Shown here piece by piece: positions 11,264 to 58,842 of a stretch of 64,000 nt of DNA (the stretch's first letter is position 1; every line of letters starts with the position of its first letter). Source of the DNA: Calothrix sp. PCC 7716 (GTDB lineage: Bacteria; Cyanobacteriota; Cyanobacteriia; Cyanobacteriales; Nostocaceae); contig NZ_AP025018.1 in NCBI RefSeq assembly GCF_019977735.1, positions 4,216,001-4,280,000 of the forward strand, read 5' to 3'. The notes below the pieces were generated by a model. The model did not search any database. It was not told where the DNA came from and saw nothing but the letters and a program-made list of their open reading frames with translations. Both the position numbers and the translations under genes were made by a program.

Positions 11264-11272
11264 AAATTTTTA

Positions 11273-11346
11273 AGTTAGGAGTTAGGAATTAGGAGTTATT
11301 TTCAACTCAGCACTCAGCACTCAGCACTCAGCACTCAGCACTCATA
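11273..11346. repeat. tandem heptamer repeats (STRR-like)
   Basis: Copies of TAGGAGT-type and then five consecutive CTCAGCA heptamers between livM and livH. The same motifs recur at 53341-53380 and 62521-62671. Short tandemly repeated heptamers are known from heterocystous cyanobacteria. Within this operon they probably form part of the untranslated spacer. Confidence 0.9.
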
Positions 11347-11355
11347 ACTATGAAG

Positions 11356-37690: not shown

Positions 37691-39166
37691 TTAAGGTAGT
37701 TCAGTAATAGGTGTTCCAGGTGATAAAGATTGTTTAGGTGAAGGAATAATAATTTTATCACCTGCTTTTAAGCCTGATTTTACTTCTACTTTTTTGGCGC
37801 TTTCGAGTCCCAGAGAAACTTTTTGTTTCTGTGCTTTACCATTTTGGTCACGTATCCAAACAAATGTTTCGTCGTCATTGCGCTGAATAGCTTCTAAGTT
37901 GACTCCGATTACATTTCTACGTTCTTCTACAAGAACCTTAACACTAACTTGACTACCCGGAATTAAAGTTCCTGTGGGTTCGTCTAGTTTCACTGTTGCA
38001 GGAATTGTTGTTTGATTGGATGAATTTCCATTGGATGAGTCTTGCTGTCCTTGTTTTTCAGAAGTTGCTAGTGGATGTAAACTTAGGACTCGACCTGTAT
38101 GCTCTTTTGAGTTGGCGCCAATACTTTTCACATGAGCTAATTGATTAATTTTGACTTTAGCTGCATCAAGTGTTCCTAACTGGAGTCTTACTAGTTCTTG
38201 TGCAGGGTTGCCAAGAGTCAGCAAAATATCTCCCGGTTTAATACCATCGCCATCTTGGACTTTGACATCAAGTATTTTACCTGTTATTGGAGCAGTCACA
38301 AAGTTTTTCTGCACCTGTGTGGCGATATTTTGCCGTTCTATTTGCATTCGCTGGAGTTCACGCTGTGCTGTTTTAACTTCTGATTCTGCGTTATTTAATT
38401 CTGTTTTTGCAATTAATAGTTTGTCTTTCTGTTCTACTTGGCGTTGTTTTTCGACTGTTAAAGCATTGATTTCCATTGCCTTAGTTTTAACTTCTGATTT
38501 TACATCATTTAATGCAGTGGTGGCTTCACGAATTTTGGCTTGCTGGTCTTCTATTTCTCTGCCGGGAATAATACCTTTCGCTAAAAAAGATTGCAAATTT
38601 CGTAACTTTTTTTGCTCTGCTGATAATTCTGCTTTAGCTTCGGTAACTTTTGCGCGGTTACGTGCTAATTCTAGTTCTAACTTTTTGATATCGAGCTGTT
38701 GTTTAAGAGGTGATTGTACTTCTCTTTGCTGCATTATTAACCGATTTTGCGCTTCTGTTACTTTTTCACGAGCGCGCGCTAGCATTAATTCTTGTTTGCG
38801 AATTTCTAAATTTTGATTGGCAAGTTTAGTTTGTTCTTCTATATTGCGAAGAACTAATAGCTGCTGACCATCTCTTACCCTATTACCTACTTTGACTAAA
38901 ACCCTATCTACTGTTACTTCTCCCGGAGATTTTAGGCTTTTTTGGTCTCCCAATTCCACCGTTCCACTTTCATTAATAGTAATTTCTATATCTGACCGTT
39001 CTACAGTAACTAATGATACTGGTACTGCTTGGGAAGATTGATTGAAATTTTGAAGGTAAAATAGCCCTCCCCCAGCACCCAGCAAAGCTATAGTTCCCGA
39101 CCCAATTAGCCATTTGATTCCGGGTAGATATTTTTGAAATTTTTGGGAAATATCAGGAAAATGCAT
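37691..39166 (-). CDS. HlyD/MacA-type periplasmic adaptor protein
   Basis: A 491-residue membrane-fusion protein with a single N-terminal TM segment (about residues 17-37, WLIGSGTIALLGAGGGLFYL), then a barrel-sandwich half VTVERSDIEITINESGTVEL, a very long coiled-coil hairpin (about 110-280, rich in K, E, Q), and the second lipoyl half NFVTAPITGKILDVKVQDGD. The end shows a beta-barrel and membrane-proximal domain (VSVKVLVEERRNVIGVNLEA). Such adaptors link an inner-membrane ABC transporter to an outer-membrane channel, as DevB does for heterocyst glycolipids. It is the last gene of the operon, 40 bp after the FtsX-type permease. It probably acts in glycan or glycolipid export, inferred from context. 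Confidence 0.9.
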   Translation of the reverse strand: MHFPDISQKFQKYLPGIKWLIGSGTIALLGAGGGLFYLQNFNQSSQAVPVSLVTVERSDIEITINESGTVELGDQKSLKSPGEVTVDRVLVKVGNRVRDGQQLLVLRNIEEQTKLANQNLEIRKQELMLARAREKVTEAQNRLIMQQREVQSPLKQQLDIKKLELELARNRAKVTEAKAELSAEQKKLRNLQSFLAKGIIPGREIEDQQAKIREATTALNDVKSEVKTKAMEINALTVEKQRQVEQKDKLLIAKTELNNAESEVKTAQRELQRMQIERQNIATQVQKNFVTAPITGKILDVKVQDGDGIKPGDILLTLGNPAQELVRLQLGTLDAAKVKINQLAHVKSIGANSKEHTGRVLSLHPLATSEKQGQQDSSNGNSSNQTTIPATVKLDEPTGTLIPGSQVSVKVLVEERRNVIGVNLEAIQRNDDETFVWIRDQNGKAQKQKVSLGLESAKKVEVKSGLKAGDKIIIPSPKQSLSPGTPITELP

Positions 39167-39206
39167 ATAAATTGGATTTGTATTGTTATCAAAAATTATT
39201 ATTTAT

Positions 39207-40388
39207 TCATTGCGCGCGCAGTGCTTGTACAGGGTCGAGACGACTTGCTTGCAAAGCTGGGTAAAAACCTGCTCCCACTCCAACTAGTAATGCAGAGCCA
39301 AAAGCTATTGCTGCTGTTTGAACCTCAAATTCATAGGGTAATTCAAAGGTATCAGCAATAACCGTAGTTAATCCATGTACTACTACCAAAGCGATAGTTC
39401 CGCCTAGTAAACTTAAAAGTGTAGCTTCGAGGATGAACTGTAACATAATTTCTCTTTGAGTGGCGCCTATAGAACGTCTCAAACCAATTTCTGAAGTACG
39501 TTCCGCGACCGAAGCAATCGTAATATTGGCAATACCAATACCTCCAACAAGTAAGGAAATTACAGCTACCACAGTTAGTCCCCGTGAAGCCATTGTTAAA
39601 ATATTCTTCTGCTGAATAATTTTTTCAACATTGTTCCAAACCATAAAAGTTTGGTCTGGGAAGCGCTCTTCAAGTAATTCTTTAGCTTCTTCGCTTAAAT
39701 TTTCTAAGTCTTCAATATTATAGGGACGCATTTGGATGCTACCAATACCATCATCACCTCTAATAACATTATAAGTAGAAACTGGTACTAATACCTGACC
39801 TTTAGGAGGACTATTTTCTTCCGTTATCGTTTCTACTACCCCAATAATAAGATAAGGTTTTTGCCGCGCATAAATATACTCTCCTATTGGTTGTTGATTC
39901 TCGAAAAGTTTATCTGCTAAAAATTTATCTATAACTGCTACCCGTCGGTAATTGCTAAAATCGCTAGCTGTGAAAAAGCGTCCCTGCACTAAATTTTTTC
40001 CTGAAGTGAGTAAAAATTCTTGGGAAACAGGGGACATAGATGGCATTAATTCCCGTTCTTGAAACATTGTTGGCGTTGGGCCAGACCAATTGAAAGTACT
40101 GATAGCTTGCACTTTATCTAATCTTTGCCGTAAAAATTCCAAGTCTTCCATTTTCAAATCAATATTTGGGCTATCCGGTTGCCATTGAGGATAAACTGTT
40201 ACTTTCGGCGCCCCTTGTTCTGCTAATTGTTGGGCAATTACTCTTTGGCTGATACTACGTACTTGTAGTGTTGCACTAACAGCAGCTACACCCATAAAAA
40301 CCCCTACCGTCGTCAAAACAGAACGTAACGGTTTAGCACTCAGGGAAAGACAAGTCAAATTCAGCAAATCAAATGGTGAGATACCCAT
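39207..40388 (-). CDS. MacB/DevC-type ABC transporter permease (FtsX family)
   Basis: A 393-residue permease with four TM segments: one near residues 22-42 and three at the end (about 270-292, 320-345, 360-380), with a large periplasmic domain between. The fold starts SAKPLRSVLTTVGVFMGVAA and the C-terminal core reads SVAERTSEIGLRRSIGATQR followed by LLSLLGG, both diagnostic of the FtsX/MacB family. It has no ATP-binding domain (MacB proper is fused to one), and no MacB/DevA-like ATPase gene lies nearby, so the ATPase must be elsewhere or supplied by another system. It is followed by the adaptor gene, and both probably build a tripartite exporter. Start ATG at 40388. Confidence 0.9.
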   Translation of the reverse strand: MGISPFDLLNLTCLSLSAKPLRSVLTTVGVFMGVAAVSATLQVRSISQRVIAQQLAEQGAPKVTVYPQWQPDSPNIDLKMEDLEFLRQRLDKVQAISTFNWSGPTPTMFQERELMPSMSPVSQEFLLTSGKNLVQGRFFTASDFSNYRRVAVIDKFLADKLFENQQPIGEYIYARQKPYLIIGVVETITEENSPPKGQVLVPVSTYNVIRGDDGIGSIQMRPYNIEDLENLSEEAKELLEERFPDQTFMVWNNVEKIIQQKNILTMASRGLTVVAVISLLVGGIGIANITIASVAERTSEIGLRRSIGATQREIMLQFILEATLLSLLGGTIALVVVHGLTTVIADTFELPYEFEVQTAAIAFGSALLVGVGAGFYPALQASRLDPVQALRAQ

Positions 40389-40393
40389 AGTAT

Positions 40394-40939
40394 TTATGCA
40401 GTTACTTTTTGTTTGTGCAAACTGATGATACGCGCGGGGTTGCCAACTACAATTGAATATGGTGGAACTTCAAAATCGACGACTGCACAGGCGCCGACAA
40501 TTACACCATCTCCAAGACGGGCGCCTTGTAAAATAATTGCTTTCGTACCAATCCATACATCATTACCAATTACAATACTGGTTGTTGTTTCGACTGATTG
40601 AGCATAAGAAATATCAGATAATTGAGCAGGAGCGGCAACAAAAGAATCTGCAATTACCACTTCGCGAGAAATCAACACATAGTTACCGATTATAACACGA
40701 TTATTGGTGGCGATAATCGGTCCTGCGATAGTACAGTAATTGCCAATTTCCACCTCGCCACAAGTTCCCAAATCAAAGGAGGAATCAATATATATACCCG
40801 TATCATGTCCTACTCGTAGTCCACAGGGGCGCTGACTTCGATAGTGTAAAAATACGTAGCTACTGTGTAGCCAACTGCGTTCACCTATGACCACATTAGA
40901 GGGTATGTCTTCAGGAAACCAATCGTGAGATAGTCTCAT
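40394..40939 (-). CDS. hexapeptide acyltransferase (WcaF-like)
   Basis: A 181-residue left-handed beta-helix acyltransferase, likely transferring an acetyl group from acetyl-CoA to a sugar hydroxyl during glycan assembly. Hexapeptide repeats appear as VEIGNYCTIAGPIIATNNRV and IGNDVWIGTKAIILQGARLG, ending with the usual AVVDFEVPPYSIVVGNPARI. The conserved DVWIG and GDGVIVGACAVV coils mark the xenobiotic/WcaF group. The catalytic His seen in many relatives (GHDV-type) is not in its usual place; GNDVW replaces it. Its ATG overlaps the stop of the second acyltransferase by 4 bp, and the permease gene follows after 5 bp, so it is firmly within the operon. Confidence 0.85.
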   Translation of the reverse strand: MRLSHDWFPEDIPSNVVIGERSWLHSSYVFLHYRSQRPCGLRVGHDTGIYIDSSFDLGTCGEVEIGNYCTIAGPIIATNNRVIIGNYVLISREVVIADSFVAAPAQLSDISYAQSVETTTSIVIGNDVWIGTKAIILQGARLGDGVIVGACAVVDFEVPPYSIVVGNPARIISLHKQKVTA

Positions 40940-41529
40940 AAATATTCCTCCTGCAAATTAGCAACTCTAGCAGGATTTCCTGTAACAAATACACCAGGGG
41001 GCACGTTTCTAGTAACGACAGACCCGGCGCCAATACGGGCGCCTGCACCGATATGTACTCCTTTAAGAATTATTGCTCCAATCCCTATTTGTACATAATT
41101 TTCAATCACTACTGGTTTGGTTTCAAGGGGAGGACGTTGGGTAATATCGCCCTCTGGAGAAATCGCAATTGCATCCCAGCGCCGTAATTCTGGGTCACGA
41201 GGATGAAAATCACTATCGGCAATCATCACATTGTAAGATATCAAAACTCGTTCTCCAATAGTGATGCTTTCGGCACACCAAAAAATAGCACCAACTAGGA
41301 TGGAATCATTACCAACTATCAATCTACCTTCTGGCTCTACGGAGAACACCGTCCAAGTGTAAACTTGTACACCTCGACCAATAATTAATCCTGGATTGAT
41401 TTGGCTACGAAATCGCTCAAAACTTTCTTTACGTTCCAGATAACAACCTTCACTCAGCCAAATATTTTCTGGAAGTATGTTGTAGTCCCAGTCACCAGTA
41501 AATTCATTAATGTTAATATTATTACTCAT
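40936..41529 (-). CDS. second hexapeptide acyltransferase
   Basis: A 197-residue left-handed beta-helix protein. Repeats include LIIGRGVQVYTWTVFSVEPE, LIVGNDSILVGAIFWCAESI and ITIGERVLISYNVMIADSDF followed by HPRD, and the C-terminal cap GAGSVVTRNVPPGVFVTGNP. The SDFH segment matches the catalytic His position (ADSDFH) of maltose/galactoside O-acetyltransferase-type enzymes. It differs from the neighbouring acyltransferase enough to suggest another acceptor position. The gene shares its first base with the last base of the glycosyltransferase upstream (TAATG-type junction at 41529), evidence for translational coupling. Confidence 0.85.
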   Translation of the reverse strand: MSNNININEFTGDWDYNILPENIWLSEGCYLERKESFERFRSQINPGLIIGRGVQVYTWTVFSVEPEGRLIVGNDSILVGAIFWCAESITIGERVLISYNVMIADSDFHPRDPELRRWDAIAISPEGDITQRPPLETKPVVIENYVQIGIGAIILKGVHIGAGARIGAGSVVTRNVPPGVFVTGNPARVANLQEEYL

Positions 41530-42692
41530 TATGTAATCTTCTCCAAAATTTCACTGAGTACTAAGCGTGAGTCAAAATGATTACGCGCCAGTTCGCGGGC
41601 TGCTTGTTGGTGGTGGTTATAATCTTGCTCAATAGTGGTTATCGCTTGGATAGCTTCTGAAAGATTGCGAAATGAAAATAAACCTTGTCCACTTGGTATA
41701 TACTCAGAAAAACCTGTATCTTGAACTACAACAGGTCGTCCGGCTGCCAGATAACAAACCGAGCGGCAACTAAACCAGCCACTACGGGTAGCGACATAAA
41801 TATTTTTGGCTACGGCAAATTCTCCCCGCGAGCGTTCGATGTAGCTGCGGTAAGTGGCGCCACTTGCTGAAGTCGGTTCGGCATCTACAACTGACCAACC
41901 TAGCTTTTGCCAATGTGTAAGCGGTACTTCTCCATTCACGTTAATTAACACCTCGAATGAGTATGGTAACTGTGTGGGAAGTGATTCTATATGCCCAAAC
42001 TCCATTTCTTTAGAACCATACTTTACCTCGTTGTAAATAATTGGTTGTGGGTAATGGTTCCATGTCATTACCGTCGTCCATTGGTTGCATGGTGGTTGAG
42101 GATTCCAATAATCCAAAACTACAGGAGGACGTGTCGAATGCCAATTCATGCCAAAAGTTGGTAATGGACAGTCCGGTTTTTCTAAACGGTGAGCATAAGT
42201 AAAGAAGTGGTCGTGAGCGCGCCACCCCCAACGCTGTTCAGAAGGAGATTTTTTATCCCATTGAGGAAAAATAACAAAATGATTCCAACCTGGGTCAGTA
42301 TCAATTAAAACTTTGTTTCGACAGTGCTGGTATTCATCTCGTAGCAAACTGCCGCCAGAAACGTTTAAAAATAGCGTTGCTTCGGCTGCAATATCCGCAA
42401 TTACAGAAGTTTCCAATCCATAAGTCTGACCATCAACAGCCCGATAATGCCAGCGTTGCGCCAAAGTGGGAGAAAGCAATTTTAAAGATGCTTTCAAAAA
42501 TTCAATGCCGTAGCTGGGGTCTTCCTCATACATCCTGGTTTCAGGGTTGTAACTGTAAGAGGGTATGCCAGGGTCTTCTAAATAATATACTTCAAAACCA
42601 AGCTGCTCCAACGAGAGTGCGTATTGTCCGTAATCCCAAGCAACACCACCCACCGGACTAGTAACAATCATGCCAGTAACAATTGCTTTCAT
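41529..42692 (-). CDS. glycosyltransferase-like protein (GT-B fold)
   Basis: A 387-residue protein that looks like a GT-B glycosyltransferase of unclear family. Its N-terminal half opens VTGMIVTSPVGGVAWDYGQY, the usual glycine-rich loop, with LEQLGFEVYYLEDPGIP after it. The C-terminal half carries the donor-binding motif AGRPVVVQDTGFSEYIPSGQ and GLFSFRNLSEAIQAI, typical of sugar-nucleotide GTs. The distance between them and the acidic and Trp-rich middle (TWNHYPQPIIYNEVKYG) are unusual. It should add one sugar to the growing glycan or glycolipid. Overlaps the GT4 gene by 4 bp. Confidence 0.75.
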   Translation of the reverse strand: MKAIVTGMIVTSPVGGVAWDYGQYALSLEQLGFEVYYLEDPGIPSYSYNPETRMYEEDPSYGIEFLKASLKLLSPTLAQRWHYRAVDGQTYGLETSVIADIAAEATLFLNVSGGSLLRDEYQHCRNKVLIDTDPGWNHFVIFPQWDKKSPSEQRWGWRAHDHFFTYAHRLEKPDCPLPTFGMNWHSTRPPVVLDYWNPQPPCNQWTTVMTWNHYPQPIIYNEVKYGSKEMEFGHIESLPTQLPYSFEVLINVNGEVPLTHWQKLGWSVVDAEPTSASGATYRSYIERSRGEFAVAKNIYVATRSGWFSCRSVCYLAAGRPVVVQDTGFSEYIPSGQGLFSFRNLSEAIQAITTIEQDYNHHQQAARELARNHFDSRLVLSEILEKIT

Positions 42693-43720
42693 CGGCGCCT
42701 CTCCAATGTCTGACGGTACAAATTCTCATAATCATCAACCATGCGGTGGTGATTGAACTTGGCTGCGACAGTTTGCCGTACTTGAGCGCGGTTTAATGCC
42801 AACGTCTCAGGAATAAGAGTAGCAAGTGAATCAACATCATCTGCGTAATAACCCGTAATACCAAACTCGATAATTTCTGGTATAGCACAACGCTTGATGG
42901 CGGCAACTGGCGTACCACATACCATTGCTTCAATCATCGCTAAACCAAAAGCTTCAGAAGAGTTGATAGGAAACAGCAGTGCTGCTGCGCCTGCTAGCAG
43001 TTTATTCCGTTCTGGTACATTGACGTATCCAATGTATTCTATTTGTTTTCCATCAACTAAAGGTTTTACCTCTGCTTCAAAATAAGCACTGCTTTGTCCT
43101 GCTAAAATCAACCGCATTCCTACCTTTTTAGCTATGTTAATCGCTTCTACTGGTCCTTTTTGATGATTCAAATGTCCTAGAAATACAAGATAATCACCAC
43201 CAGTTGAATTAAAAGGAAAAGCATTAACGTCAATACCGTTGTAAACAACAGCAACATCAGGGAGAATTGAAAACTTACTACGGTGATATTGGGAAACTGC
43301 TACTAGCTGAACCTCTTGATAGCGGGCATAACAGTTAATAATATCTTTAGCAGGATTAATGTGGTAAGTGTGTACAACTGGGGTTTGCACCAAGCATGTG
43401 AAAGGTAAAGCGTGATGGTAAGCATGGCAGTGAATAATGTCAAACTGTTTTGCCATTTCAAAAGCAGCAGACACATGGGTAATTTCATGAAACTCATAGT
43501 AGTTCCATAACATTGGGTCTTCCTTATAGCCGTGTTTATAAGCAGCGTGTAATGTCGCACTTGTTTGGGAATCTCCCGTTGCAAATAGTGTTACCTGATG
43601 ACCTCGATGTGTAAATTCCTCCGCTAACAAAGATACAATTTGCTCAATTGAACTACCTATATCTGGTCTAGTTGGATAAGCAATTGGTGCTACTAAAGCA
43701 ATTCGTAAAGATTCAGTCAT
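42689..43720 (-). CDS. glycosyltransferase family 4
   Basis: A 343-residue retaining GT-B glycosyltransferase. The N-terminus shows IALVAPIAYPTRPDIGSSIE with LLAEEFTHRGHQVTLFATGD, the acceptor side; VYNGIDVNAFPF is the linker present in nearly every GT4, and the E-x7-E motif is in SSEAFGLAMIEAMVCGTPVA. YLVFLGHLNHQKGPVEAINIA starts the nucleotide-sugar half. The sugar and linkage it makes are unknown. Its ATG and the upstream kinase's stop share one base (43720), and it overlaps the downstream GT gene by 4 bp, so coupling in the operon is tight. Confidence 0.9.
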   Translation of the reverse strand: MTESLRIALVAPIAYPTRPDIGSSIEQIVSLLAEEFTHRGHQVTLFATGDSQTSATLHAAYKHGYKEDPMLWNYYEFHEITHVSAAFEMAKQFDIIHCHAYHHALPFTCLVQTPVVHTYHINPAKDIINCYARYQEVQLVAVSQYHRSKFSILPDVAVVYNGIDVNAFPFNSTGGDYLVFLGHLNHQKGPVEAINIAKKVGMRLILAGQSSAYFEAEVKPLVDGKQIEYIGYVNVPERNKLLAGAAALLFPINSSEAFGLAMIEAMVCGTPVAAIKRCAIPEIIEFGITGYYADDVDSLATLIPETLALNRAQVRQTVAAKFNHHRMVDDYENLYRQTLERRR

Positions 43721-44673
43721 TAGTTATGCTCCCGTTTTAGCCACTGCCAACGGTCTGCTATTTTATTGAGCAACTTTTCGGTAAAGCTGCTATTCTGGCA
43801 AGGTTTAATCCACCAACGTAGATACCATAGGGTTTTCAAAATATCACAACAAGCCAGAGTTTGCTGAAAGGCGCCTTTATCAAAAGGCATATCAGTGTGT
43901 AGTACAAACTCATCAAAATAAGTATCTAACAAGCGTGACTTGTTTTTTCCCCAGCCAGATAGAAGTTTTGCTATATCCCAAGCTGGTACACCAATTGCCG
44001 CCCATTCCCAATCAATTGGTCTAATACCAACCCCAGCCTGAACCATGAGATTATGGCAGGACATATCGCCATGCACTAAAGTTTGGGGCTGATTATCTAA
44101 ATGAGCAATCAAATTATCTAGCGGCGCCATTAACTGATTGAAATAAGCGAGCGCTTGCGGCTGATTTTTTTGAATACTTTGACCAGCCATTTGGGCAAGA
44201 TGCTGATAGAATTTTGCCCCATGTTCGCTCAGACAATTAAGTGTCCGTAACTCCCTATCCTTACCATAGTAAGTAGCGTGCATCCGTGCCAGCCAGCGAA
44301 ATGCATTCAACCATTCATCTACATCACAATATTCCAGTTTCCATTCACCTACATCTTCGAGGAAAAGCCAGTAACGCCCGTTAATTTCATCGTGATGCTC
44401 GGCATACAACGCTGGCGCCCCCAAGTGTTTCCCGCATAGTAATCGTTTGTATAAATACACCTCCTGTCCACAGCTACGGATTTGTAAATCAGTTCTAGGT
44501 TGCAATTGCTTGAAGATAACTGACAATTGCTGACTGTCATCTAATGTTACTTTTATTCTCTCAATCGGATGTGTACTAAAACTATACAGGGGTGTAGATT
44601 GGCTCTCTATAATCTGTACAGTTCGTCCCAAATGCTGACTTAACCCTTCTTCTAGTACCTCGATTGCCGTCAT
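43720..44673 (-). CDS. APH/choline-kinase-fold phosphotransferase
   Basis: A 317-residue protein of the aminoglycoside-phosphotransferase fold, which uses ATP to phosphorylate a hydroxyl of a small molecule. Key residues lie in the catalytic loop LVHGDMSCHNLMVQ (Brenner motif with catalytic Asp and metal Asn) and the metal-binding PIDWEWAAIGVPAWDIAKLL. In a sugar operon it may phosphorylate a monosaccharide or a lipid-linked glycan to make an activated intermediate, in the manner of sugar kinases of salvage pathways; an antibiotic-resistance role seems less likely. Overlaps the ABC transporter gene by 4 bp at its start. This family inside a glycan operon is uncommon and is part of the interest here. 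Confidence 0.88.
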   Translation of the reverse strand: MTAIEVLEEGLSQHLGRTVQIIESQSTPLYSFSTHPIERIKVTLDDSQQLSVIFKQLQPRTDLQIRSCGQEVYLYKRLLCGKHLGAPALYAEHHDEINGRYWLFLEDVGEWKLEYCDVDEWLNAFRWLARMHATYYGKDRELRTLNCLSEHGAKFYQHLAQMAGQSIQKNQPQALAYFNQLMAPLDNLIAHLDNQPQTLVHGDMSCHNLMVQAGVGIRPIDWEWAAIGVPAWDIAKLLSGWGKNKSRLLDTYFDEFVLHTDMPFDKGAFQQTLACCDILKTLWYLRWWIKPCQNSSFTEKLLNKIADRWQWLKREHN

Positions 44674-46433
44674 ACTATCTGCTCCTCTATCAAATCAGAT
44701 TTTCTTGTAAAACTAACCAACCGTCCCTGCTCAATCACTAGTTGTACATCGCAGTTTTCCAAAGTACTGAGTCTATGGGCAATCATAAAAGTCGTGCGTC
44801 CGCGCATCAATCGCTCCATTGCACTCATAATTACCGCTTCGGTATTAACATCAACAGAACTGGTGGGTTCATCCAGAATCAAAATCGGTGCATTTTTGAG
44901 AAACGCGCGCGCGAGAGAAATGCGTTGACGCTCTCCCCCAGAAAGTCGCATTCCTCGCTCTCCAACTTTTGTGTCATAACCTTCAGGTAAATCTAGAATG
45001 AAGGAATGGGCGTTTGCTGCCTTAGCTGCGGCAATAATTTCACTTTGGCTAGCTTCTGGACGAGCATAGGCAATATTTTCAGCAATACTGGTAGAAAACA
45101 GCACTGGCTCTTGCAGCATAATCGCGAATTGATTGCGTAAATCTTGAAGTTTATACTTACGCAAATCAATCTTATTGAGTAAAATTTGACCTTCAGTTGG
45201 GTCGTAAAATCGGGTCAGCAGACTTACAAGAGTTGTTTTACCTGCACCAGTTGTCCCAGCGATACCAACTCGTGTTCCGGGTGGGACACTTAAGGATATT
45301 TCCTCAAGTACGGGTGTCTTATCGTCATAGCTGAATGATACATTGTTAAAAATTATCCCTCCTTTTGAATGTTTTAACGGTATAGCATCGGGTTTTTCTG
45401 GGACATCAGGTGGTTCATCCAAAAGCGTAAAAGCACGTTCTGCACCAGTCAGTGAACCTTGCATACCTGCTATGTTTTTGCTCATTGATTCTAGGGGCTT
45501 ATACAACTGCGACAAATACCCTAGTACCAATAGCAAACTTCCTAATGATAATTTTTCATCTTGTACTAAAGAGGCGCCAACATACAGTACTGAAGCACTA
45601 CCAATAGCTGTAGTTAAGGGAATTAACACTCCTAAACTACCCTCGACCAATTTGAGGCGAATTTGCGCGCGTAAGGCTTCGTGGGCATGGTGGTTAAAGC
45701 GGTCTTGCTCTCTGTCTTCTTGGGCAAATGCCTTGACAACACGCATCGCTGCCAATACTTCTTGAACAACTGAGAAGGCAGCACTTTCCAGCTTTTTAGC
45801 TCCGCGCCACTGTTGACGTAATCGCCGACTGTACAACCGAGATAGACAATATAATAGAGGCGAGATAGCAAGGGCAATAATGGCAAGCTGTAAGTTAATG
45901 CGAGCAGTAACGTACAACATGCTGCCAAATGTGAAAGTTGAAGTGATAAATGGAATTATGCCATCTACAGCAATCCATTGAAGGGCAGGAGCATCATGCT
46001 GAAGACGATAATGAGTATCATAGGCGCCTTTAGAGTCGTGATAAGAGAGTGATAAGCGTTGGGCATGGCGAAACAACCGCGCTCGAAAATTTAAAACCAA
46101 CTTGGCGCCAGTGTAACTTTGTAGCATTGAACTAGCAAGCCCCAACAATTTGCCAAACACTACAATTCCCATAGATAAGGCAACTGCAAAAATGAGAATT
46201 GCTTCGCGAGAACCTGTAATTGTTGTAGGTAGAACAGCTTGTAAAAAACCAGGCAATGGTCGCGTACCCAAAACGCTATCAACAACAATTGTTACAGGTA
46301 AAGGATTCAGTAACAGAATGGGGGTTGATAGTAGACTTAGCAGCAACATCGCTACCAAATGCCAACGGAACGGTTGCGCCTCACGAAGAACTCGTTGGTA
46401 AAGTTTGCGGTTGGTGTAAGGATTTGACGTCAC
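44670..46433 (-). CDS. MsbA-like ABC exporter (fused TM and ATPase)
   Basis: A 587-residue half-transporter with six TM helices (about residues 20-310) and an ATPase domain (about 340-580). Walker A is GIAGTTGAGKTTLVSLL, signature MRLSGGERQRISLARAFLKN, Walker B ILILDEPTSSVDVNTEA, followed by the switch His in MIAHRLSTLENC. The family exports lipids, lipid-linked glycans or peptides across the inner membrane as a homodimer. In this operon it probably flips the glycan product or its lipid carrier. The fusion layout matches MsbA and HetC-like cyanobacterial exporters. It starts 15 bp after the GH/GT fusion gene. Confidence 0.93.
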   Translation of the reverse strand: MTSNPYTNRKLYQRVLREAQPFRWHLVAMLLLSLLSTPILLLNPLPVTIVVDSVLGTRPLPGFLQAVLPTTITGSREAILIFAVALSMGIVVFGKLLGLASSMLQSYTGAKLVLNFRARLFRHAQRLSLSYHDSKGAYDTHYRLQHDAPALQWIAVDGIIPFITSTFTFGSMLYVTARINLQLAIIALAISPLLYCLSRLYSRRLRQQWRGAKKLESAAFSVVQEVLAAMRVVKAFAQEDREQDRFNHHAHEALRAQIRLKLVEGSLGVLIPLTTAIGSASVLYVGASLVQDEKLSLGSLLLVLGYLSQLYKPLESMSKNIAGMQGSLTGAERAFTLLDEPPDVPEKPDAIPLKHSKGGIIFNNVSFSYDDKTPVLEEISLSVPPGTRVGIAGTTGAGKTTLVSLLTRFYDPTEGQILLNKIDLRKYKLQDLRNQFAIMLQEPVLFSTSIAENIAYARPEASQSEIIAAAKAANAHSFILDLPEGYDTKVGERGMRLSGGERQRISLARAFLKNAPILILDEPTSSVDVNTEAVIMSAMERLMRGRTTFMIAHRLSTLENCDVQLVIEQGRLVSFTRKSDLIEEQIV

Positions 46434-46448
46434 CAGTGTAGCCTCCTA

Positions 46449-48962
46449 TTACCTTTGCTGTTGTTGACGGATTGCTTGTAAAAGAACAGTATGGGCAATT
46501 GCACTTTCATATACAGAGCGGAAAATTAGCAGCAGTGCAACTACACCCAGTTTGATTGCAGCTTCCCATGCTTCATCAACCAATGCCACCAGGGTGAGGG
46601 TAATAAACAATACAACCAACATGCATCCGAACTTAGACCATCTCGACCAAGTTCGTAACCGCACCATTTGCGTACCACCCCCATGCTCTTCCAGCACCAT
46701 TAGCAAACGTCCTCCTCCTAATAGACCACCTAACACTTCTAAATCCCAACGGTCATAATTACCTCCCCGCTCTACCCGATGTCCGTTATTTTGTATAGCT
46801 GTTTCAATTGCACCTAACCATCCTTCCGGTGCCCGCCAAGAAGTACTCCAAATCTTTAAGGTTTTCGACAGAGATAATGTCAAATTCTTTACACTATACC
46901 AACGCCAAGGTACAAGCCCGTGCCGCAGTCTTCCCCGTAGGCGAGAATAGGGTTGCAGCAGAAACAGCACAGTAGTTAAAATGTAGCGCTGGCATCGTTC
47001 ATAGCGGGATATGGGATAGCTGGCAGAAGCACGAGCAGCACTGCGACATGCCTGCACCACCGTCGCTGCAATTGCTAAAATCGCAAGTGGCGATATCAAC
47101 CACAACGGCATCCATAAAACACCCAGCAGTGATAGTACTAGTAAAGCCAAAAGCACAAAATACCATTCCGGCATTAACAATAATGACCCTAAAGTTCCCG
47201 GTGTCGGTTGATATATAGATTGAAACGGCGCCAAACCCCAAGTACCGTAAAACACCCTATCTTTTTGATGCAAAGCTGGCACGACTCTTGGCCCATAGAT
47301 GCGCCCTAACCAGGACATGTGACCTAATGTGTTATATTTTTCAGGCCATTTTTTTTCTAATAATGCCTCGGCTTTCCCGTAGCCATGCTGTTGCTTATAA
47401 AATCTAGAAACAGAATTGCGGCGATGATGCCAAACTAATGCTCCGGGGTGAAATCCTATCGTCCAACCTTGTTGTTGCAGGCGCCAACAAATATCAACAT
47501 CATCACCTGCAGTGCGAAATTGGGTATCAAACCCACCAATTACTTCCAGATATGCTTTGCGAAATGCCATATTGCAACCGGGAATATGTTCTGCTTCTTG
47601 GTCAGAAAGAAGCACATGAGAAGGATTACCAGGCGAACTTGCAACACACTCAGCTACCATTCCATCTCCTGGTGGTGCTAGGTTTGGACCACCAACTCCT
47701 ACATGCTTAGTGTGCCTAAAAGTATGAGCTAGATAGTGTAACCAGTGTGGGTCAGGATAGGCGTCATCATCAATATACGCAACTATTTCACCCCGTGCTG
47801 CTTGTATCCCCACATTACGAGCATGACTCAACCCACTTTGGGGAATACTAATAAGCTTTGCATCATATTCACTGGCAATTTCTGCCGTTGAATCCGTGGA
47901 ACCATCATCAACAACAATCACCTCGTGCTGTGGATACTTCAGCTTTGACAAACCTTCTAGACATTCACGAATCGTGCGGGCGCCGTTATAACTGCAAACC
48001 ACCACTGAAATGAATGGTAAATCTGGATGCAAAGGAAATGGCACATCCGCAAAAGCCTGACGGACAGCAGCGAGGGCAGGTTTGGCTTGGCGCCGACGGT
48101 CAGTTAATCCAAAATCCCAATCTTCAATATCATGCCCTCCTCGATACCATTCATCAGTCCAAGCGAATACAAACGCCCCTGCACAACCAGCAGTAAATGT
48201 CGTGCGAATCTGCCAATTCAGTACTTGAGCTTGTTTTTCTTTGCCATTACGAAGACTATCTAACCCCAATTCAGCAATTACCAAAGGACGAGAACCAGCC
48301 AAATTTTGCAACCGGGCAAGATAAGCTTCTAAGCGATGCTGTTGTTCTAGATAGACGTTAAAACAAACAAAATCTATAAATCGCAGTTGTAAATATTCAG
48401 TAGTTGGATAATTCACATAGGTAATTAAACCATCAGCATCTTCCTGCTTTACAACTTGATACAAACGTTGCAAAAATCGTTCGATTCGATCATGACCGTA
48501 CCAGCGTACAATTGGGGCGGGAATCTCATTACCAATGGCATAGCATAACAAAGCTGGATGTCCTACACAATTACGCACCAGAGCGCGGATGCATTCCTCA
48601 ATCGATTTAACCCGCTTACGATCATCGAGAAACGTAATATGCTGTTCCCAAGGCAACCCAACCATCACCCAAAGACCATACTCTGCTGCGACATCAAATA
48701 ACCAGCATGGTGGTACTGTGTAGGTACGCACTGTATTAATTCCATTTGCTAACATAGCAGCAAAATCACGCTCAACGATTTGACGGCTCGGATATAAGCA
48801 ATCATTTTCGTCTGGACGAAACGTGCCATAAGTAACACCACGGATATACAGTTTTTGGTCACCGACAAAAATAAACTTCCCCTGGACTTGCGGTCGTATA
48901 TTTTTTCCGGTAGAGATTGGCATAGGCAACTTTGGATTGTGAAAGATTGATTTGATAAGCAT
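46449..48962 (-). CDS. glycoside-hydrolase-fold / GT2 fusion membrane protein
   Basis: A protein of about 837 residues, first gene of the glycan operon. Numbered from the TTG at 48995, residues 40-320 form a GH2/GH5-type TIM barrel (clan GH-A): GKFIFVGDQKLYIRGVTYG, the acid/base Glu157 in YAIGNEIP and a nucleophile-like Glu242 in LVIAELGLDS. Residues 328-560 make a GT2 glycosyltransferase with SVVVCSYNG, VVDDGSTDS (363-366), the DDD metal site 409-411, and ED-like GDDVDICWRLQQQGW. Hydrophobic segments follow from about 610 to 690 and near 800, anchoring it in the membrane. I favour the ATG at 48960-48962 (residue 12). Both active sites appear intact, so it may make and trim, or transglycosylate, the same glycan. 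Confidence 0.88.
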   Translation of the reverse strand: MLIKSIFHNPKLPMPISTGKNIRPQVQGKFIFVGDQKLYIRGVTYGTFRPDENDCLYPSRQIVERDFAAMLANGINTVRTYTVPPCWLFDVAAEYGLWVMVGLPWEQHITFLDDRKRVKSIEECIRALVRNCVGHPALLCYAIGNEIPAPIVRWYGHDRIERFLQRLYQVVKQEDADGLITYVNYPTTEYLQLRFIDFVCFNVYLEQQHRLEAYLARLQNLAGSRPLVIAELGLDSLRNGKEKQAQVLNWQIRTTFTAGCAGAFVFAWTDEWYRGGHDIEDWDFGLTDRRRQAKPALAAVRQAFADVPFPLHPDLPFISVVVCSYNGARTIRECLEGLSKLKYPQHEVIVVDDGSTDSTAEIASEYDAKLISIPQSGLSHARNVGIQAARGEIVAYIDDDAYPDPHWLHYLAHTFRHTKHVGVGGPNLAPPGDGMVAECVASSPGNPSHVLLSDQEAEHIPGCNMAFRKAYLEVIGGFDTQFRTAGDDVDICWRLQQQGWTIGFHPGALVWHHRRNSVSRFYKQQHGYGKAEALLEKKWPEKYNTLGHMSWLGRIYGPRVVPALHQKDRVFYGTWGLAPFQSIYQPTPGTLGSLLLMPEWYFVLLALLVLSLLGVLWMPLWLISPLAILAIAATVVQACRSAARASASYPISRYERCQRYILTTVLFLLQPYSRLRGRLRHGLVPWRWYSVKNLTLSLSKTLKIWSTSWRAPEGWLGAIETAIQNNGHRVERGGNYDRWDLEVLGGLLGGGRLLMVLEEHGGGTQMVRLRTWSRWSKFGCMLVVLFITLTLVALVDEAWEAAIKLGVVALLLIFRSVYESAIAHTVLLQAIRQQQQR

Positions 48963-49083
48963 TTCACAGTTATATTTATTACAGTATTGTTTCAAATTTG
49001 TATTAGCCTGCCTTTCTCTTCTCGCAATACATAGAGCAAGCTTGTAAAAAAAATAATCGCTACATCTGTAAAGATATTACTTG

Positions 49084-49127
49084 AACCTTTAAAGAACCTT
49101 AACAAAACCTTTAGAAAACCTTAAAAA
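49084..49127 (-). promoter_or_regulatory. four direct repeats at 11-bp period, putative OmpR/PhoB-type operator
   Basis: AACCTT occurs at 49084, 49095, 49106 and 49117: four copies at exactly 11-bp steps, with A-rich spacers (units like CCTTAACAAAA, CCTTTAGAAAA). This spacing places all copies on one face of DNA and equals the head-to-tail half-site spacing of OmpR/PhoB-family operators, including the cyanobacterial Pho box. It lies about 120 bp before the start of the glycan operon and just after the histidine kinase gene. Because a regulator of that family is encoded 1.6 kb upstream, autologous control of the operon is the simplest inference. Confidence 0.6.
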
Positions 49128-49216
49128 AATATTTATAGTATGTATAAAAGTCTGTGATATAATATAGCGCATCAAAATATTAAATATGTCGCCTATCTGT
49201 CTGGTGATGTGCATAC

Positions 49217-49238
49217 GGTCAGGCAAGATGCCTAACCT
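49217..49238. repeat. dispersed palindrome after histidine kinase gene
   Basis: GGTCAGGCAAGATGCCTAACC, an imperfect member of the AGGCA/TGCCT family, 24 bp after the stop codon of the histidine kinase. It separates the two-component genes from the operator region. Confidence 0.6.
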
Positions 49239-49261
49239 ACGAAAATTAATGACATGGAGTA

Positions 49262-50680
49262 CTACGTTGCTAATTGTATTTCCACGCGAAAACATGCACC
49301 ACTTCCAACCTGATTAAAAGCAGCAATTGTGCCACCATGAGCTTCTACAATTGCTTTGGCTATTGCCAGTCCTAACCCTAACCCTCGATCTGCTTTACTT
49401 TGAGGTTGCCCATAACGAAAACGCTCAAAAATATGGTCGAGCATATCAGCAGGAATTCCTCGACCATTATCGGAAATTGTGATACGTGCCTTACCTGCAA
49501 TTGATTCTAGACGCATATCAATTTGAGTTTTTTCTGGGGTATGGCGAATCGCATTATCAAGGATGTTTAATAATACCTGCTCAATTCGGTCTGGGTCTGC
49601 TTGCACAAAAACTTTTTCAGACAAAGTTGTTTGCAGTGTAAAGCGTCCTGTTCTCAGACGAATCAATTCTGCAACTTCTGCACATAAGCTTGATAAATCT
49701 ACCCGTTGCAGTTCAAGCATTGCAGCTTTATCAGTGCGTGCCAATAATAATAAATCTTTGACTAATCGATTCGTGCGATTTATTTCGCGGCGCATTCTAG
49801 TTAGCAGGGGACGACTTTCTTCAGATACCCCAGTAACTCCTGTCAGTAACAAGTCGGTATAACCACCTATTGTAGTTAGGGGTGTACGGAGTTCATGGGA
49901 AATATCCGCTAGAAACTGTCGCAGTCGGTTTTCAGATTGTGCTTGAGCATCAAACGCAGCTTGAAGATGGTCAACCATTTCATCAAACGAACTAGCCAAC
50001 TGACCAATTTCGTCAGAACCCCGATGTAGGTGGACTCGCCGTGACCAATCACCCCGCGCGATTTGTTTAGTAACAATTATCATGCACGCTAGGGGACGCA
50101 GGTTTTTACGCACCATGATAAAAACTAAAGTCGATGCAATGAGTAATAATATTACACTGTAAATAATAGTTGAAAGAACATGATGCCGTACCAATCGGTA
50201 ACTTTCCTCTAACGATGTACTCAGCACCACTACACCAAGTGGTTTTTGACGGGGGGGAATTGGAACGAGTGCCACCAAGAAGTGATTACGATTTTTATCT
50301 GTAACTATATAGTTTTGTTCACGTTCTCCTGCAAGAGCTGGTGCATACCACTTTTGCGGTAACTCCGGCGGAGCTGGCTCACCAATTTGGCTGTAGTAAC
50401 GACCAATTACTTGGCTGTGACGGTCAACAATTACTGCTCCGGTGTCAGCGGAGGTGAGGTCGGTTGCCAATTGATTCGCGAGCGCGCGTAACTTAGTATC
50501 ATCAAGTGGCTGATGCAATAAATCTTTATCAATTATTGGCTTTGCTTGGGCACGGAGGCGTATACCTTCACGTTCCAGAACAAAAGAGTGTAAATTGTGA
50601 AAGTCTTGTGCAATCATCAACAGCAGCAACGGAGCAATTAGCCCTACAACCCCAAGTGTTAAACGCCAGTACAAAGTCAT
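49262..50680 (-). CDS. HAMP-containing sensor histidine kinase
   Basis: A 472-residue membrane sensor. A TM segment at about 8-26 and another at about 170-192 enclose a periplasmic domain of roughly 145 residues of the extracytoplasmic sensory kind. HAMP follows at about 193-245 (NLRPLACMIIVTKQIARGDW). The HisKA box is FLADISHELRTPLTTIGGYT, with the phospho-His near residue 260. The ATPase part has NILDNAIRHTPEKT, DNGRGIP and the glycine-rich GLGLGLAIAKAIVEAHGG. It phosphorylates the OmpR-type regulator whose gene ends 61 bp upstream. The kinase is probably responding to an envelope cue, unknown here. Confidence 0.93.
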   Translation of the reverse strand: MTLYWRLTLGVVGLIAPLLLLMIAQDFHNLHSFVLEREGIRLRAQAKPIIDKDLLHQPLDDTKLRALANQLATDLTSADTGAVIVDRHSQVIGRYYSQIGEPAPPELPQKWYAPALAGEREQNYIVTDKNRNHFLVALVPIPPRQKPLGVVVLSTSLEESYRLVRHHVLSTIIYSVILLLIASTLVFIMVRKNLRPLACMIIVTKQIARGDWSRRVHLHRGSDEIGQLASSFDEMVDHLQAAFDAQAQSENRLRQFLADISHELRTPLTTIGGYTDLLLTGVTGVSEESRPLLTRMRREINRTNRLVKDLLLLARTDKAAMLELQRVDLSSLCAEVAELIRLRTGRFTLQTTLSEKVFVQADPDRIEQVLLNILDNAIRHTPEKTQIDMRLESIAGKARITISDNGRGIPADMLDHIFERFRYGQPQSKADRGLGLGLAIAKAIVEAHGGTIAAFNQVGSGACFRVEIQLAT

Positions 50681-50741
50681 AAGAGAACGGCTTGAGGAAA
50701 AGTTTCAGCGAAACATGTTTGAAATTTATCACACACCTAAA

Positions 50742-51446
50742 TCAAAGCATGGCAGGGCGCATTAACATATAACCGATACCACGTAAAGTCCGAATTACAA
50801 ACGATGGTTCACAATTCAACTTGCTTCGTAAATTGCTAATATACACTTCAATGATAGTAGTATCACCATAGTAGTCATAACCCCATACACGATCTAAAAT
50901 TGTTTGGCGTTCCAAGACTTGATTCGGATACTGCATTAATAAATGTAATAAATTAAACTCTTTACGAGTTAGATCAATAGGTACATCACCTCTCCAAACT
51001 TCACGTGTTTTAACATTTAGCGTAATGTTTCCAGATGTCAATACATCACTTTGAGGTGGTAGATGGCGCCGTAATACAGCACGGATACGCGCTAATAACT
51101 CAGGAAAATGGAAAGGTTTGGTGAGGTAATCGTCTGCTCCTAACTCAAAACCACGCACTTTATCCGCCAGGTCATCACGCACTGTTAGCAGAATAATTAG
51201 GACATCACTATCACGACGGATATTGCGACAAACCTCAAAGCCGTCCAAATCAGGTAAATTGCCATCTAAAATCACAAGCTGTGGTTTCCAGTTACTAAGC
51301 ATTTCCAACGCAGCATAACCATTCCGAACCGAGCGAACATCAAAACCCTCATACCTTAAGCCTAGTTCAACGAAGTCAACAATTGATTGCTCGTCGTCTA
51401 CAACCATTACCTGAATTGTTTGACCAATTGCATCTCTTTCAGACAT
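50742..51446 (-). CDS. OmpR/PhoB-family response regulator
   Basis: A 234-residue two-domain regulator. The receiver has the acidic pair Asp17/Asp18 (VMVVDDEQ), the phosphoacceptor Asp61 in LVILDGNLPD, Thr/Lys switch residues in ILLTVRDD and YLTKPF. The C-terminal winged helix (about 135-230) shows RKEFNLLHLLMQYPNQVLER and the DNA-recognition end IEVYISNLRSKLN. OmpR-family regulators bind tandem half-sites about 11 bp apart; exactly such an array sits before the glycan operon at 49084-49127. Cotranscription with the kinase gene (gap 61 bp) is likely. Start ATG at 51444-51446. Confidence 0.94.
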   Translation of the reverse strand: MSERDAIGQTIQVMVVDDEQSIVDFVELGLRYEGFDVRSVRNGYAALEMLSNWKPQLVILDGNLPDLDGFEVCRNIRRDSDVLIILLTVRDDLADKVRGFELGADDYLTKPFHFPELLARIRAVLRRHLPPQSDVLTSGNITLNVKTREVWRGDVPIDLTRKEFNLLHLLMQYPNQVLERQTILDRVWGYDYYGDTTIIEVYISNLRSKLNCEPSFVIRTLRGIGYMLMRPAML

Positions 51447-51755: not shown

Positions 51756-52466
51756 TTAGCGGTAGCCTAGAATTTCGGATACTGCTGATACTATATCTAG
51801 GTAGAAGTTACCTTGTACTGCTCTAAACATTTCAAATTTGGTATCTGGTGAACCAAAGAATGGTCGTAGGAACCAACCTAGCTGCATTCCGATGAAGCCG
51901 TATAGCAGTAGCCATGACCTTAATATGGTGGTGCGGGTTTTTTTGCCGACTTCATCTAGCTCTGATAGTAACTGCATTCCTTCGTATAGAAATTTTACGC
52001 CGAAGAAACCTGTGATGCCGAATATAGCGACGTTTAGTAGTTTAAAAAATTGGTATGCTTTGGGAGCGGTGATTAAGAAGAATAGTGTTACTGGTGCAAA
52101 GCTAAATAGTAAGACGCTGATTACTGAGATTGCTGTCATTAATACTACAAAGTGCTGTTGGACGCTGCTGCGGGAACCAAATAGTACGTTGAAGAAGAAT
52201 AAGGTAGGGAAGCAGATTATTAATGTGAGCAGGTAGAATGCTGGTAGTTTGATGGCGCCTGATAATGCTTGGGCAAAGCTGTGGGATGAACCTATTATGG
52301 CGCCGTATATTGCAAAGAATAGGGAACTGGATACGAATAATGATGTAGCTTTGCTTTGTAAGCGTATGCTTTGTTTGATTTCTTCTAGGAAGTTTTGACG
52401 GTCTCTTAGTAGGCTAAGGAGTACTGTGAAGTGTTGGATGTTGTTTGTCTTTTTTTGTTGAAGCAT
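51756..52466 (-). CDS. multi-pass membrane protein, cyanobacterial conserved (paralogue 1)
   Basis: A 236-residue protein with about five hydrophobic helices (around residues 42-62, 75-95, 108-130, 135-155 and 183-205). A conserved cytosolic head, HFTVLLSLLRDRQNFLEEIK, precedes them. The body includes FGSRSSVQQHFVVLMTAISVISVLLFSFAP and the end has WLLLYGFIGMQLGWFLRPFFG. This pattern occurs widely in cyanobacteria; automatic annotation often calls such proteins actin-binding WH2 proteins, for which I see no support. It is a tandem duplicate of the gene just downstream in coordinates (52522-53226), with many identical segments. Function unknown; the two probably form a membrane complex. Confidence 0.8.
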   Translation of the reverse strand: MLQQKKTNNIQHFTVLLSLLRDRQNFLEEIKQSIRLQSKATSLFVSSSLFFAIYGAIIGSSHSFAQALSGAIKLPAFYLLTLIICFPTLFFFNVLFGSRSSVQQHFVVLMTAISVISVLLFSFAPVTLFFLITAPKAYQFFKLLNVAIFGITGFFGVKFLYEGMQLLSELDEVGKKTRTTILRSWLLLYGFIGMQLGWFLRPFFGSPDTKFEMFRAVQGNFYLDIVSAVSEILGYR

Positions 52467-52472
52467 GAGTTT

Positions 52473-52510
52473 TTACCACAGAGACGCAGAGTACACAGAG
52501 AAAGAGAGGG
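52473..52510. repeat. dispersed ACCACAGAGACGCAGAG repeat between paralogues
   Basis: A full-length copy, TTACCACAGAGACGCAGAG, placed between the stop of one membrane paralogue and the start of the other. Confidence 0.75.
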
Positions 52511-52521
52511 AAGGGAGTTAA

Positions 52522-57570: not shown

Positions 57571-57575
57571 AAAAT

Positions 57576-58814: not shown

Positions 58815-58815
58815 T

Positions 58816-58831
58816 AAGCACTTCAGTGCTT
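58816..58831. terminator. hairpin AAGCACTTCAGTGCTT after the Wzt-type gene
   Basis: Same motif as 27030-27045, also just after a stop codon, with one changed base pair in the loop. It stands 12 bp before the GT2 gene start, so it may attenuate rather than end transcription. Confidence 0.4.
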
Positions 58832-58842
58832 CCCATATTATT

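Follow-up and report, generated by a model that had tools for sequence, protein, structure and literature searches.

A two-component-linked operon of Calothrix sp. PCC 7716 predicted to make and export a decorated surface glycan

Introduction

What is made by an operon in which a glycoside hydrolase domain and a glycosyltransferase are joined in one membrane protein, next to exporter genes, a small-molecule kinase and two acetyltransferases? This question is raised by a locus of Calothrix sp. PCC 7716 that lies in a stretch of 64,000 nucleotides (contig NZ_AP025018.1 of assembly GCF_019977735.1, positions 4,216,001 to 4,280,000), referred to as the window below. An earlier note, made from the letters alone, had described nine minus-strand genes behind a two-component system and had proposed an acylated, possibly phosphorylated, surface glycan or glycolipid with two export routes. 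The analysis presented here makes it rather probable that the locus is a two-component-controlled cassette for the synthesis and export of a decorated, beta-linked oligosaccharide or glycolipid destined for the cell surface. Judged from the predicted enzymes, this product is most likely O-acetylated and possibly phosphorylated.

Results

Gene order of the operon is kept in close relatives

The nine genes occupy 37691-48995 of the minus strand. In the order of transcription they encode a fusion of a glycoside hydrolase clan A (GH-A) domain with a family 2 glycosyltransferase (GT2) domain, an MsbA-type ATP-binding cassette (ABC) exporter, an APH-type kinase, the glycosyltransferases GT4 and GTx, the hexapeptide O-acetyltransferases Hex1 and Hex2, an FtsX permease and a HlyD-type adaptor. 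By the open reading frame (ORF) coordinates neighbours overlap by 1-4 bp or are spaced by 5-40 bp, exactly as the earlier note had it: a gap of 15 bp between fusion and exporter is followed by overlaps of 4 (exporter/APH), 1 (APH/GT4), 4 (GT4/GTx), 1 (GTx/Hex1) and 4 bp (Hex1/Hex2) and by gaps of 5 (Hex2-FtsX) and 40 bp (FtsX-HlyD). The fusion gene lies 266 bp downstream of the sensor kinase gene, which itself lies 61 bp downstream of the response regulator gene; this pair was thus found just upstream of the operon as described, the kinase being recognized by Pfam and the regulator by NCBIfam. The Pfam scan covered the nine operon proteins and the kinase. It agreed with the identities proposed earlier for eight of the genes; the second glycosyltransferase, GTx, had no Pfam match, but its AlphaFold model has a GT-B fold. 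A scan for promoters and terminators gave no clear signal, with 43 promoter-like sites where 34.3 were expected and 8 terminator-like sites where 12.8 were expected.

Whether the genes keep together or are scattered elsewhere was examined in related genomes. The nine genes from the regulator to Hex2 were collinear in three of them, G148, G102 and G119. G148 (locus L096) carries all eleven genes on one strand, with the window order up to Hex2 (at L096:9116-9634, by tblastn) and then HlyD before FtsX, the reverse of the window. In G102 (L097) and G119 (L098) the window order is likewise kept through Hex2, and HlyD-FtsX is divergent and located upstream of the regulator. A fourth genome, G161 (L156), has retained the regulator, the kinase, a truncated GT4, GTx, Hex1, Hex2, HlyD and FtsX, but lacks the genes for fusion, exporter and APH and the beginning of GT4 (G161:C3:461000-480000, around 11124-12123); the gap is either a true deletion or an assembly error. 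In all four genomes the regulator (69-79% identical) immediately precedes the kinase, whose orthologues are 57-63% identical.

In a sample of the window's order 5 of 195 genomes contained GTx (E up to 1e-20), and each of these is one of the six with the fusion. Four of these five belong to one family, and the carriers being kin, they do not represent five independent events. The cyanobacterial context of the window is also seen in G342 (L099), a genome classed in the same family, in which a phycobilisome-linker-like protein is encoded. Because the regulator, the kinase and the first seven operon genes are collinear in the three relatives, and because GTx occurs only in fusion-carrying genomes of the order sample, the arrangement of the sequences indicates that the grouping is beyond chance. 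This supports the proposal of a single synthesis and export unit, with a kinase and acetyltransferases, that is linked to a two-component system.

The fusion joins a GH-A barrel to a GT2 domain

The AlphaFold model of the fusion (pLDDT 89.3, pTM 0.86; residue numbering according to window:46449-48962:-) consists of a barrel at about residues 25-305, a glycosyltransferase domain at 317-540, membrane helices at 600-680, a small alpha/beta domain at 700-775 and C-terminal helices. Hydropathy placed the first membrane segment no earlier than residue 590, so that both catalytic domains probably face the cytoplasm. In a fold search with Foldseek the barrel was nearest to GH157, GH5_18 and GH2 beta-glucuronidases/galacturonidases, and the GT2 region was matched as well. 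The candidate acid/base N145-E146, the candidate nucleophile E231 and the GT2 residues D398, D400, D487 and D488 are invariant over 80 of 80 fusions (rows longer than 760 amino acids, window included), and D399 is kept in 73 of them. The consensus further has KQQxGYGKAE conserved in the region after D487/D488.

In clan GH-A the two catalytic glutamates are placed on barrel strands, and in the model E146 directly follows one strand while E231 lies within another. GH17 also belongs to this clan. The GH17-GT2 fusions Glt1, Glt3 and Glt7, a cyclic beta-1,3-glucan synthase and glucanosyltransglucosidases (PMC11005184, in excerpt), likewise have an N-terminal hydrolase-type domain and a C-terminal GT2 domain in one protein; in the present fusion, too, a candidate catalytic pair, E146 and E231, is kept beside GT2. 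The hydrolase domain of the present fusion differs from theirs, being GH2_C by sequence and GH157/GH5_18/GH2 by fold instead of GH17. Here, an MsbA-type exporter and GTx adjoin the fusion gene.

The best NCBIfam match of the GT2 region was MftF (TIGR03965), yet its 163.5 bits fall short of the curated cut-off, 280. MftF extends mycofactocin by as many as nine glucoses in beta-1,4 linkage (PMC7491314, in excerpt). It serves a cofactor pathway, whereas the ten operon and regulator proteins scanned match no other mycofactocin model of NCBIfam. As the nearest model is MftF and the GH17-GT2 fusions give a precedent, we infer that the GT2 domain elongates a beta-linked chain which the adjoining hydrolase domain transfers, closes or trims. 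A synthase-dependent pathway of the BcsA type was considered and set aside, as PilZ had no Pfam match in the ten proteins scanned and a QxxRW motif was not seen by eye in the fusion consensus.

GTx, a predicted GT-B glycosyltransferase without a Pfam or NCBIfam family

GTx was modelled with pLDDT 95.1 and pTM 0.94 as a GT-B fold, and the best fold match of this model was the alpha-1,2-glucosyltransferase tll1591 (E 6e-10). By sequence, Pfam and NCBIfam scans gave no match, and a comparison with solved structures yielded a single chance-level match (E 1.1). Retaining GT-B enzymes of the GT4 type carry the motif E-x7-E. GTx was tried as one of these: the fold fits, but apart from the missing Pfam match E-x7-E was not seen by eye in a 56-row consensus. 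Up to four GTx copies per locus are present among the relatives. Neither the fusion nor GTx was matched in PADLOC, and a protein search of a plasmid collection (E up to 1e-60) returned no match.

Fusion relatives are spread over many phyla

In a scan of a collection of species genomes, 139 of 143 pattern matches were confirmed as fusion relatives, and the best 80 of the 139 were kept as named loci (51-63% identity in the best segment). By record title these 80 belong to 16 phyla, with three unassigned. Most of the records are metagenome bins, so that some phylum labels may be wrong; cultivated isolates such as Segetibacter and Flavihumibacter are represented as well. The fusion was present in 6 of 195 genomes of the window's order and in 2 of 386 of a phylum-wide draw, the host being included in both counts and two to four first-look candidates being scored per genome. 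Two alignments, A1 and A2, comprise the window protein and 55 of 75 and 55 of 74 listed proteins, respectively.

A fusion tree of 79 rows was made by a quick method from rows of 760-1000 amino acids, leaving out L081 with 1021. It required 23 changes for 15 phylum labels, the minimum being 14. Cyanobacterial fusions formed three separate lineages: the window with G148, G102 and G119 (support 100); Xenococcus, REEB459 and Leptolyngbya FACHB-60 (support 99), placed beside Bacteroidota at just 88; and the long-branched L092-L095 (support 100). This phylogeny fits horizontal transfer but does not prove it.

An exporter and GTx accompany the fusion

In 58 of 66 testable loci a same-strand exporter gene was located within 6 kb downstream of the fusion, and in 49 of the 66 it started at most 600 bp from the fusion match. 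Distances between fusions and between exporters were correlated over 46 loci (Mantel r 0.62; none of 2000 permutations as high). GTx was found within 10 kb of the fusion in 45 of 55 loci. As the thresholds for E-value and length were the same throughout these neighbour counts, HlyD, Hex and GT4 genes that have diverged are undercounted. In Leptolyngbya sp. FACHB-60 (L070) the gene order is fusion-ABC-ABC-Hex-Hex-GTx-GTx. Owing to longest-ORF calling, 8 of the 80 loci (L015, L033, L047, L050, L058, L059, L062 and L076) are without an ORF clustered with the fusion, and high-GC loci yielded some spurious or fused ORFs.

The stretches around the relatives' fusions contain nucleotide-sugar dehydrogenase genes in 6 loci and SDR/GalE genes in 15. 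A Pfam scan of 103 of the 145 eligible neighbours, from which the 25 commonest of 86 families were considered, gave 11 APH, 9 pyruvyl-transferase and 7 methyltransferase matches. These neighbours point to a glycan product, which in some relatives perhaps contains uronic acid.

Of the eight loci in which the exporter is lacking, six (L007, L019, L024, L025, L030 and L034) lie in one clade of Syntrophobacteraceae- and Deltaproteobacteria-titled records. In four of these six (L007, L019, L024 and L025) an oxoglutarate-dehydrogenase E1-like protein, cluster c17, is encoded downstream of the fusion. It was dropped as a member of the system, the one protein scanned with Pfam resembling ordinary metabolism.

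A repeat array between the kinase and fusion genes

Regulators of the OmpR/PhoB family bind tandem repeats at 11 bp. The regulator of the operon scored strongly with many NCBIfam models of this family, all of them, among the 25 listed, below cut-off, and the gap between the kinase and fusion genes contains direct repeats with exactly this period (Table 1). The corresponding gap has four TWAAG units at the same 11-bp period in G102 and G119, and two units in G161. The lag-11 signal was matched in 0, 0, 0 and 4 of 1000 dinucleotide shuffles for the window, G148, G102 and G119, respectively; when any lag of 5-30 was allowed, 1, 0, 3 and 21 of 300 shuffles were as high. Upstream of the regulator a lag-11 repeat was not found in the three gaps tested (494, 215 and 855 of 1000 shuffles as high).

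With a three-unit pattern taken from the window and at most two mismatches allowed, the kinase-fusion gap was the sole site in the 12.37-Mb host genome. A looser pattern was confined to the same place in G000 and G119, had one further site with two mismatches in G102 and had no site in G148. Because of the 11-bp tandem repeats and the family scores of the regulator, the two are likely to form a dedicated regulator-operator pair; that the regulator is dedicated is also suggested by the uniqueness of the array in the host genome.

The MsbA-type exporter and the incomplete HlyD-FtsX pair

The operon exporter shares its one-chain architecture with MsbA (TIGR02203), the glucan exporter PRK13657 (NF010178) and HepA (NF045513). 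It scored 407.5, 360 and 346 bits with these models and reached none of the cut-offs (602, 733 and 725, respectively). Its best NCBIfam score, 425 against a cut-off of 880, was with the cyanophycin-associated exporter NF052233. An ABC transporter-dependent pathway of the KpsMT/Wzm-Wzt type was rejected for the operon, as its exporter combines PF00664 and PF00005 in one chain; a separate Wzm/Wzt pair lies at 56728-58814.

In the window, G148, G102, G119, G161, L093 and L094, the search beside HlyD-FtsX revealed no gene for a MacB-type ATPase and none for outer-membrane efflux. The pair by itself is thus an incomplete exporter, and the two export routes of the earlier note are not borne out in that form. 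A DevBCA-type exporter, in which adaptor, permease and ATPase are encoded together, was likewise dismissed on account of the ATPase missing beside FtsX in these seven loci. The FtsX subfamily is common, being present in 43 of 148 genomes of the order (E up to 1e-90). In the 29 loci that were returned with flanks of about 1.5 kb, shorter in some (L110-L138, the G119 and G102 relatives themselves included), a MacB-type ATPase was found in none, a HlyD gene in 25 and an outer-membrane efflux gene in 24. Four of the 29 have two tandem permease genes. Elsewhere the host genome contains a unit of HlyD, FtsX and outer-membrane efflux protein (L107:6185-10685) and two ATPase-bearing units with a more distant FtsX (L108 and L109).

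Adaptor plus MacB/DevC-type permease is also the composition of HgdB/HgdC and of DevBCA-HgdD (PMC6161253 and PMC8277102, both in excerpt). HgdB/HgdC of Anabaena (All5347/All5346) is an ATPase-less DevBC-like pair that affects the heterocyst glycolipid layer, and its authors note a cluster without an ATPase gene (PMC6161253, in excerpt). Pairs of this kind are characterized by the use of a remote ATPase and of TolC (HgdD). The present pair resembles HgdB/HgdC in gene content, by lacking an adjacent ATPase gene. It differs from the DevBCA/HgdBC systems in that polyketide synthase had no Pfam match in the operon and that the adaptor scored 52 bits against a DevB cut-off of 129. Another type of fusion cassette, in L093 and L094, likewise terminates in HlyD-FtsX. 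In the Rokubacteria cassettes L032 (by Pfam) and L010 (where HlyD clusters with that of L032), HlyD, ATPase and FtsX occur together, and this favours a functional connection of such an exporter with the cassette.

Discussion

Taken together, the predicted functions suggest the following mechanism. The fusion would reside in the inner membrane with both catalytic domains facing the cytoplasm, where its MftF-like GT2 domain would add beta-linked sugars from a nucleotide sugar. The GH-A domain may cut, transfer or close the growing chain in a transglycosylase or editing step as in the GH17-GT2 glucan enzymes. GT4 and GTx could attach further sugars, the APH-type kinase would phosphorylate a sugar or polar substituent, and Hex1 and Hex2 would O-acetylate the product. 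The MsbA-type exporter is predicted to move this across the inner membrane, and HlyD-FtsX, in the manner of HgdB-HgdC, may aid the crossing of the envelope with an ATPase and a TolC-type channel encoded elsewhere. The regulator would bind the four 11-bp repeats and switch on the single operon.

Several observations weigh against this reading. The cassette is variable: 8 of the 66 loci have no exporter within 6 kb, GTx is missing from G147 although the fusion is there, and near the fusion APH (15 of 55 loci), Hex1 (10), FtsX (4) and GT4 (2) are optional, while the window's HlyD as query matched 0 of 55 loci. Since APH and Hex genes are optional, the acylated and phosphorylated product of the earlier note holds for the window subtype and not for the core family. 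Regulator or kinase genes were found within 4 kb upstream of the fusion in 0 of 50 loci, with a regulator-kinase pair just beyond this limit in L059. The repeat array is degenerate in G148, and in G119 a lag of 22 (two units) outscores lag 11, whose score is reached at some lag by the 21 of 300 shuffles given above. As the copy in G161 lacks the fusion, exporter and APH genes, the operon appears to be dispensable or decaying. No initiating enzyme or acceptor was identified for the cassette, beta-1,4-glucose is only a lead because the MftF match is below the model cut-off, and the chemistry of the product is itself inferred.

Could the product rather be a true exopolysaccharide or capsule? The chain would then be assembled on a lipid carrier that the MsbA-type exporter flips, in the way that PglK flips lipid-linked glycans, and enzymes with genes elsewhere would polymerise or attach it on the outside. 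The several glycosyltransferases per locus, including multiple GTx copies, are compatible with this, as are the methyltransferases and pyruvyl transferases encoded near the fusions of relatives (the latter 9 of the 103 neighbours scanned) and the Wzm/Wzt-type exporter with a GT2 gene at 56728-59850. However, the Pfam matches of the operon, to which the search for such genes in the host was confined, include neither Wzx nor Wzy nor an initiating phosphoglycosyltransferase, and we regard this explanation as unlikely. A Wzx/Wzy-dependent pathway was set aside by the same token: in the ten proteins scanned, the only ones of the genome that this search covered, Pfam did not detect Wzx, Wzy or Wzc/Wza. 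Still less probable is a cassette for the glycosylation and export of a small natural product or lipid, in which the APH-type enzyme would serve as a self-protection or tailoring kinase. APH enzymes, acetyltransferases and MacAB-like pairs do also occur in antibiotic clusters, which counts for it. The nearest GT2 model, MftF, glycosylates a small redox cofactor (PMC7491314, in excerpt). Yet the Pfam matches of the operon include no scaffold gene for a polyketide, a non-ribosomal peptide, a ribosomally synthesized and post-translationally modified peptide or a terpene, and the relatives carry sugar-nucleotide, pyruvyl-transferase and YdjC-deacetylase-like genes instead.

A further question is whether HlyD-FtsX belongs to the cassette or is an unrelated neighbour, its FtsX subfamily being common in the order. 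The latter is suggested by the difference in frequency between this subfamily and the fusion (43 of 148 against 6 of 195 genomes), by the usual company of FtsX in the 29 loci, with an outer-membrane efflux gene beside 24 and HlyD beside 25, and by the divergent orientation of the pair relative to the regulator in G102 and G119. Against this, the pair adjoins the cassette in the window and in all four relatives and ends the other fusion cassette in L093 and L094, and sets of HlyD, ATPase and FtsX are found inside the Rokubacteria cassettes L032 and L010. An unrelated neighbourhood is given little credence, and the preferred reading remains a cassette for a decorated beta-linked oligosaccharide or glycolipid in which the pair participates.

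A counterpart of the cassette had not been known to the earlier note, and searches of the open-licence literature in PubMed Central for the fusion, the cassette or its parts yielded no description of it among the papers listed. In two papers on cyanobacterial exopolysaccharide (PMC4594306, in excerpt, and PMC4390846) the terms 'MsbA' and 'glycoside hydrolase' are absent from the main text. The kinds of component are known; the novelty lies in how they are combined, in the GTx family and in the wide distribution of the fusion. More tentatively, and with the balance somewhat against it, we suggest that fusion, MsbA-type exporter and GTx constitute an undescribed surface-glycan route in about 16 phyla. 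In this route a membrane enzyme would both elongate and cut or transfer the chain in the cytoplasm, so setting its length or closing the ring before export, without Wzx/Wzy, KpsMT or BcsA-type machinery, and one cyanobacterial lineage would have added a private two-component system and a single operator. Were its product identified, a single enzyme family would account for a surface glycan of many bacteria, from soil and sediment as well as photosynthetic ones, for which we found no assigned pathway. The fusion offers a testable model of a synthase that limits chain length by its own transglycosylase, and the host operon would be a compact regulatory system with one sensor, one regulator and one operator array in the genome.

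Features of the window

The coordinates of the operon and its regulatory region are collected in Table 1.

Table 1. Predicted features of the operon and its upstream region, in window coordinates.
Feature	Position	Strand	Basis
OmpR/PhoB-type response regulator	50742..51446	-	NCBIfam, best MtrA 222 bits, below cut-off 300
Membrane sensor histidine kinase: two transmembrane segments, HAMP, HisKA, HATPase	49262..50680	-	Pfam, hydropathy
Probable operator: four 8-bp direct repeats TWAAGGTT, exact 11-bp period	49084..49124	-	
Fusion, predicted core synthase: GH-A clan hydrolase domain, GT2, membrane helices, C-terminal domain	46449..48995	-	Pfam GH2_C and GT2, AlphaFold, Foldseek
MsbA-type ABC exporter, membrane domain and ATPase in one chain	44670..46433	-	Pfam PF00664 and PF00005
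APH/choline-kinase-like small-molecule kinase	43720..44673	-	Pfam PF01636 (1.1e-12); HGDxxxxN...IDWE motif present
GT4 glycosyltransferase	42689..43720	-	Pfam PF00534, PF13439
GTx, GT-B glycosyltransferase without Pfam/NCBIfam family	41529..42692	-	AlphaFold model, fold search
Hex1, hexapeptide O-acetyltransferase 1	40936..41529	-	Pfam PF00132; nearest NCBIfam WbbJ, below cut-off
Hex2, hexapeptide O-acetyltransferase 2	40394..40939	-	Pfam PF00132; nearest NCBIfam WbbJ, below cut-off
MacB/DevC-type FtsX permease, no ATPase gene adjoining	39207..40388	-	Pfam MacB_PCD and FtsX
HlyD/MacA-type periplasmic adaptor	37691..39166	-	Pfam HlyD_3; NCBIfam RND_mfp above cut-off, DevB below

Just upstream of the regulator, at 51756-53226, two adjacent hydrophobic proteins of 236 and 234 amino acids are encoded that look alike by eye and are without a Pfam family; no match to this pair was found in the stretches of G148, G102, G119 and G161 searched. 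The plus-strand genes at 56728-59850, a Wzm/Wzt-type ABC-2 exporter with a Wzt_C domain and a GT2 gene, make up a separate second glycan export locus near the operon. On its other side, a Fic-domain protein (33260-34378), with SoFic as best PADLOC match, is preceded by an ISL3-family transposase at 31864-33081.

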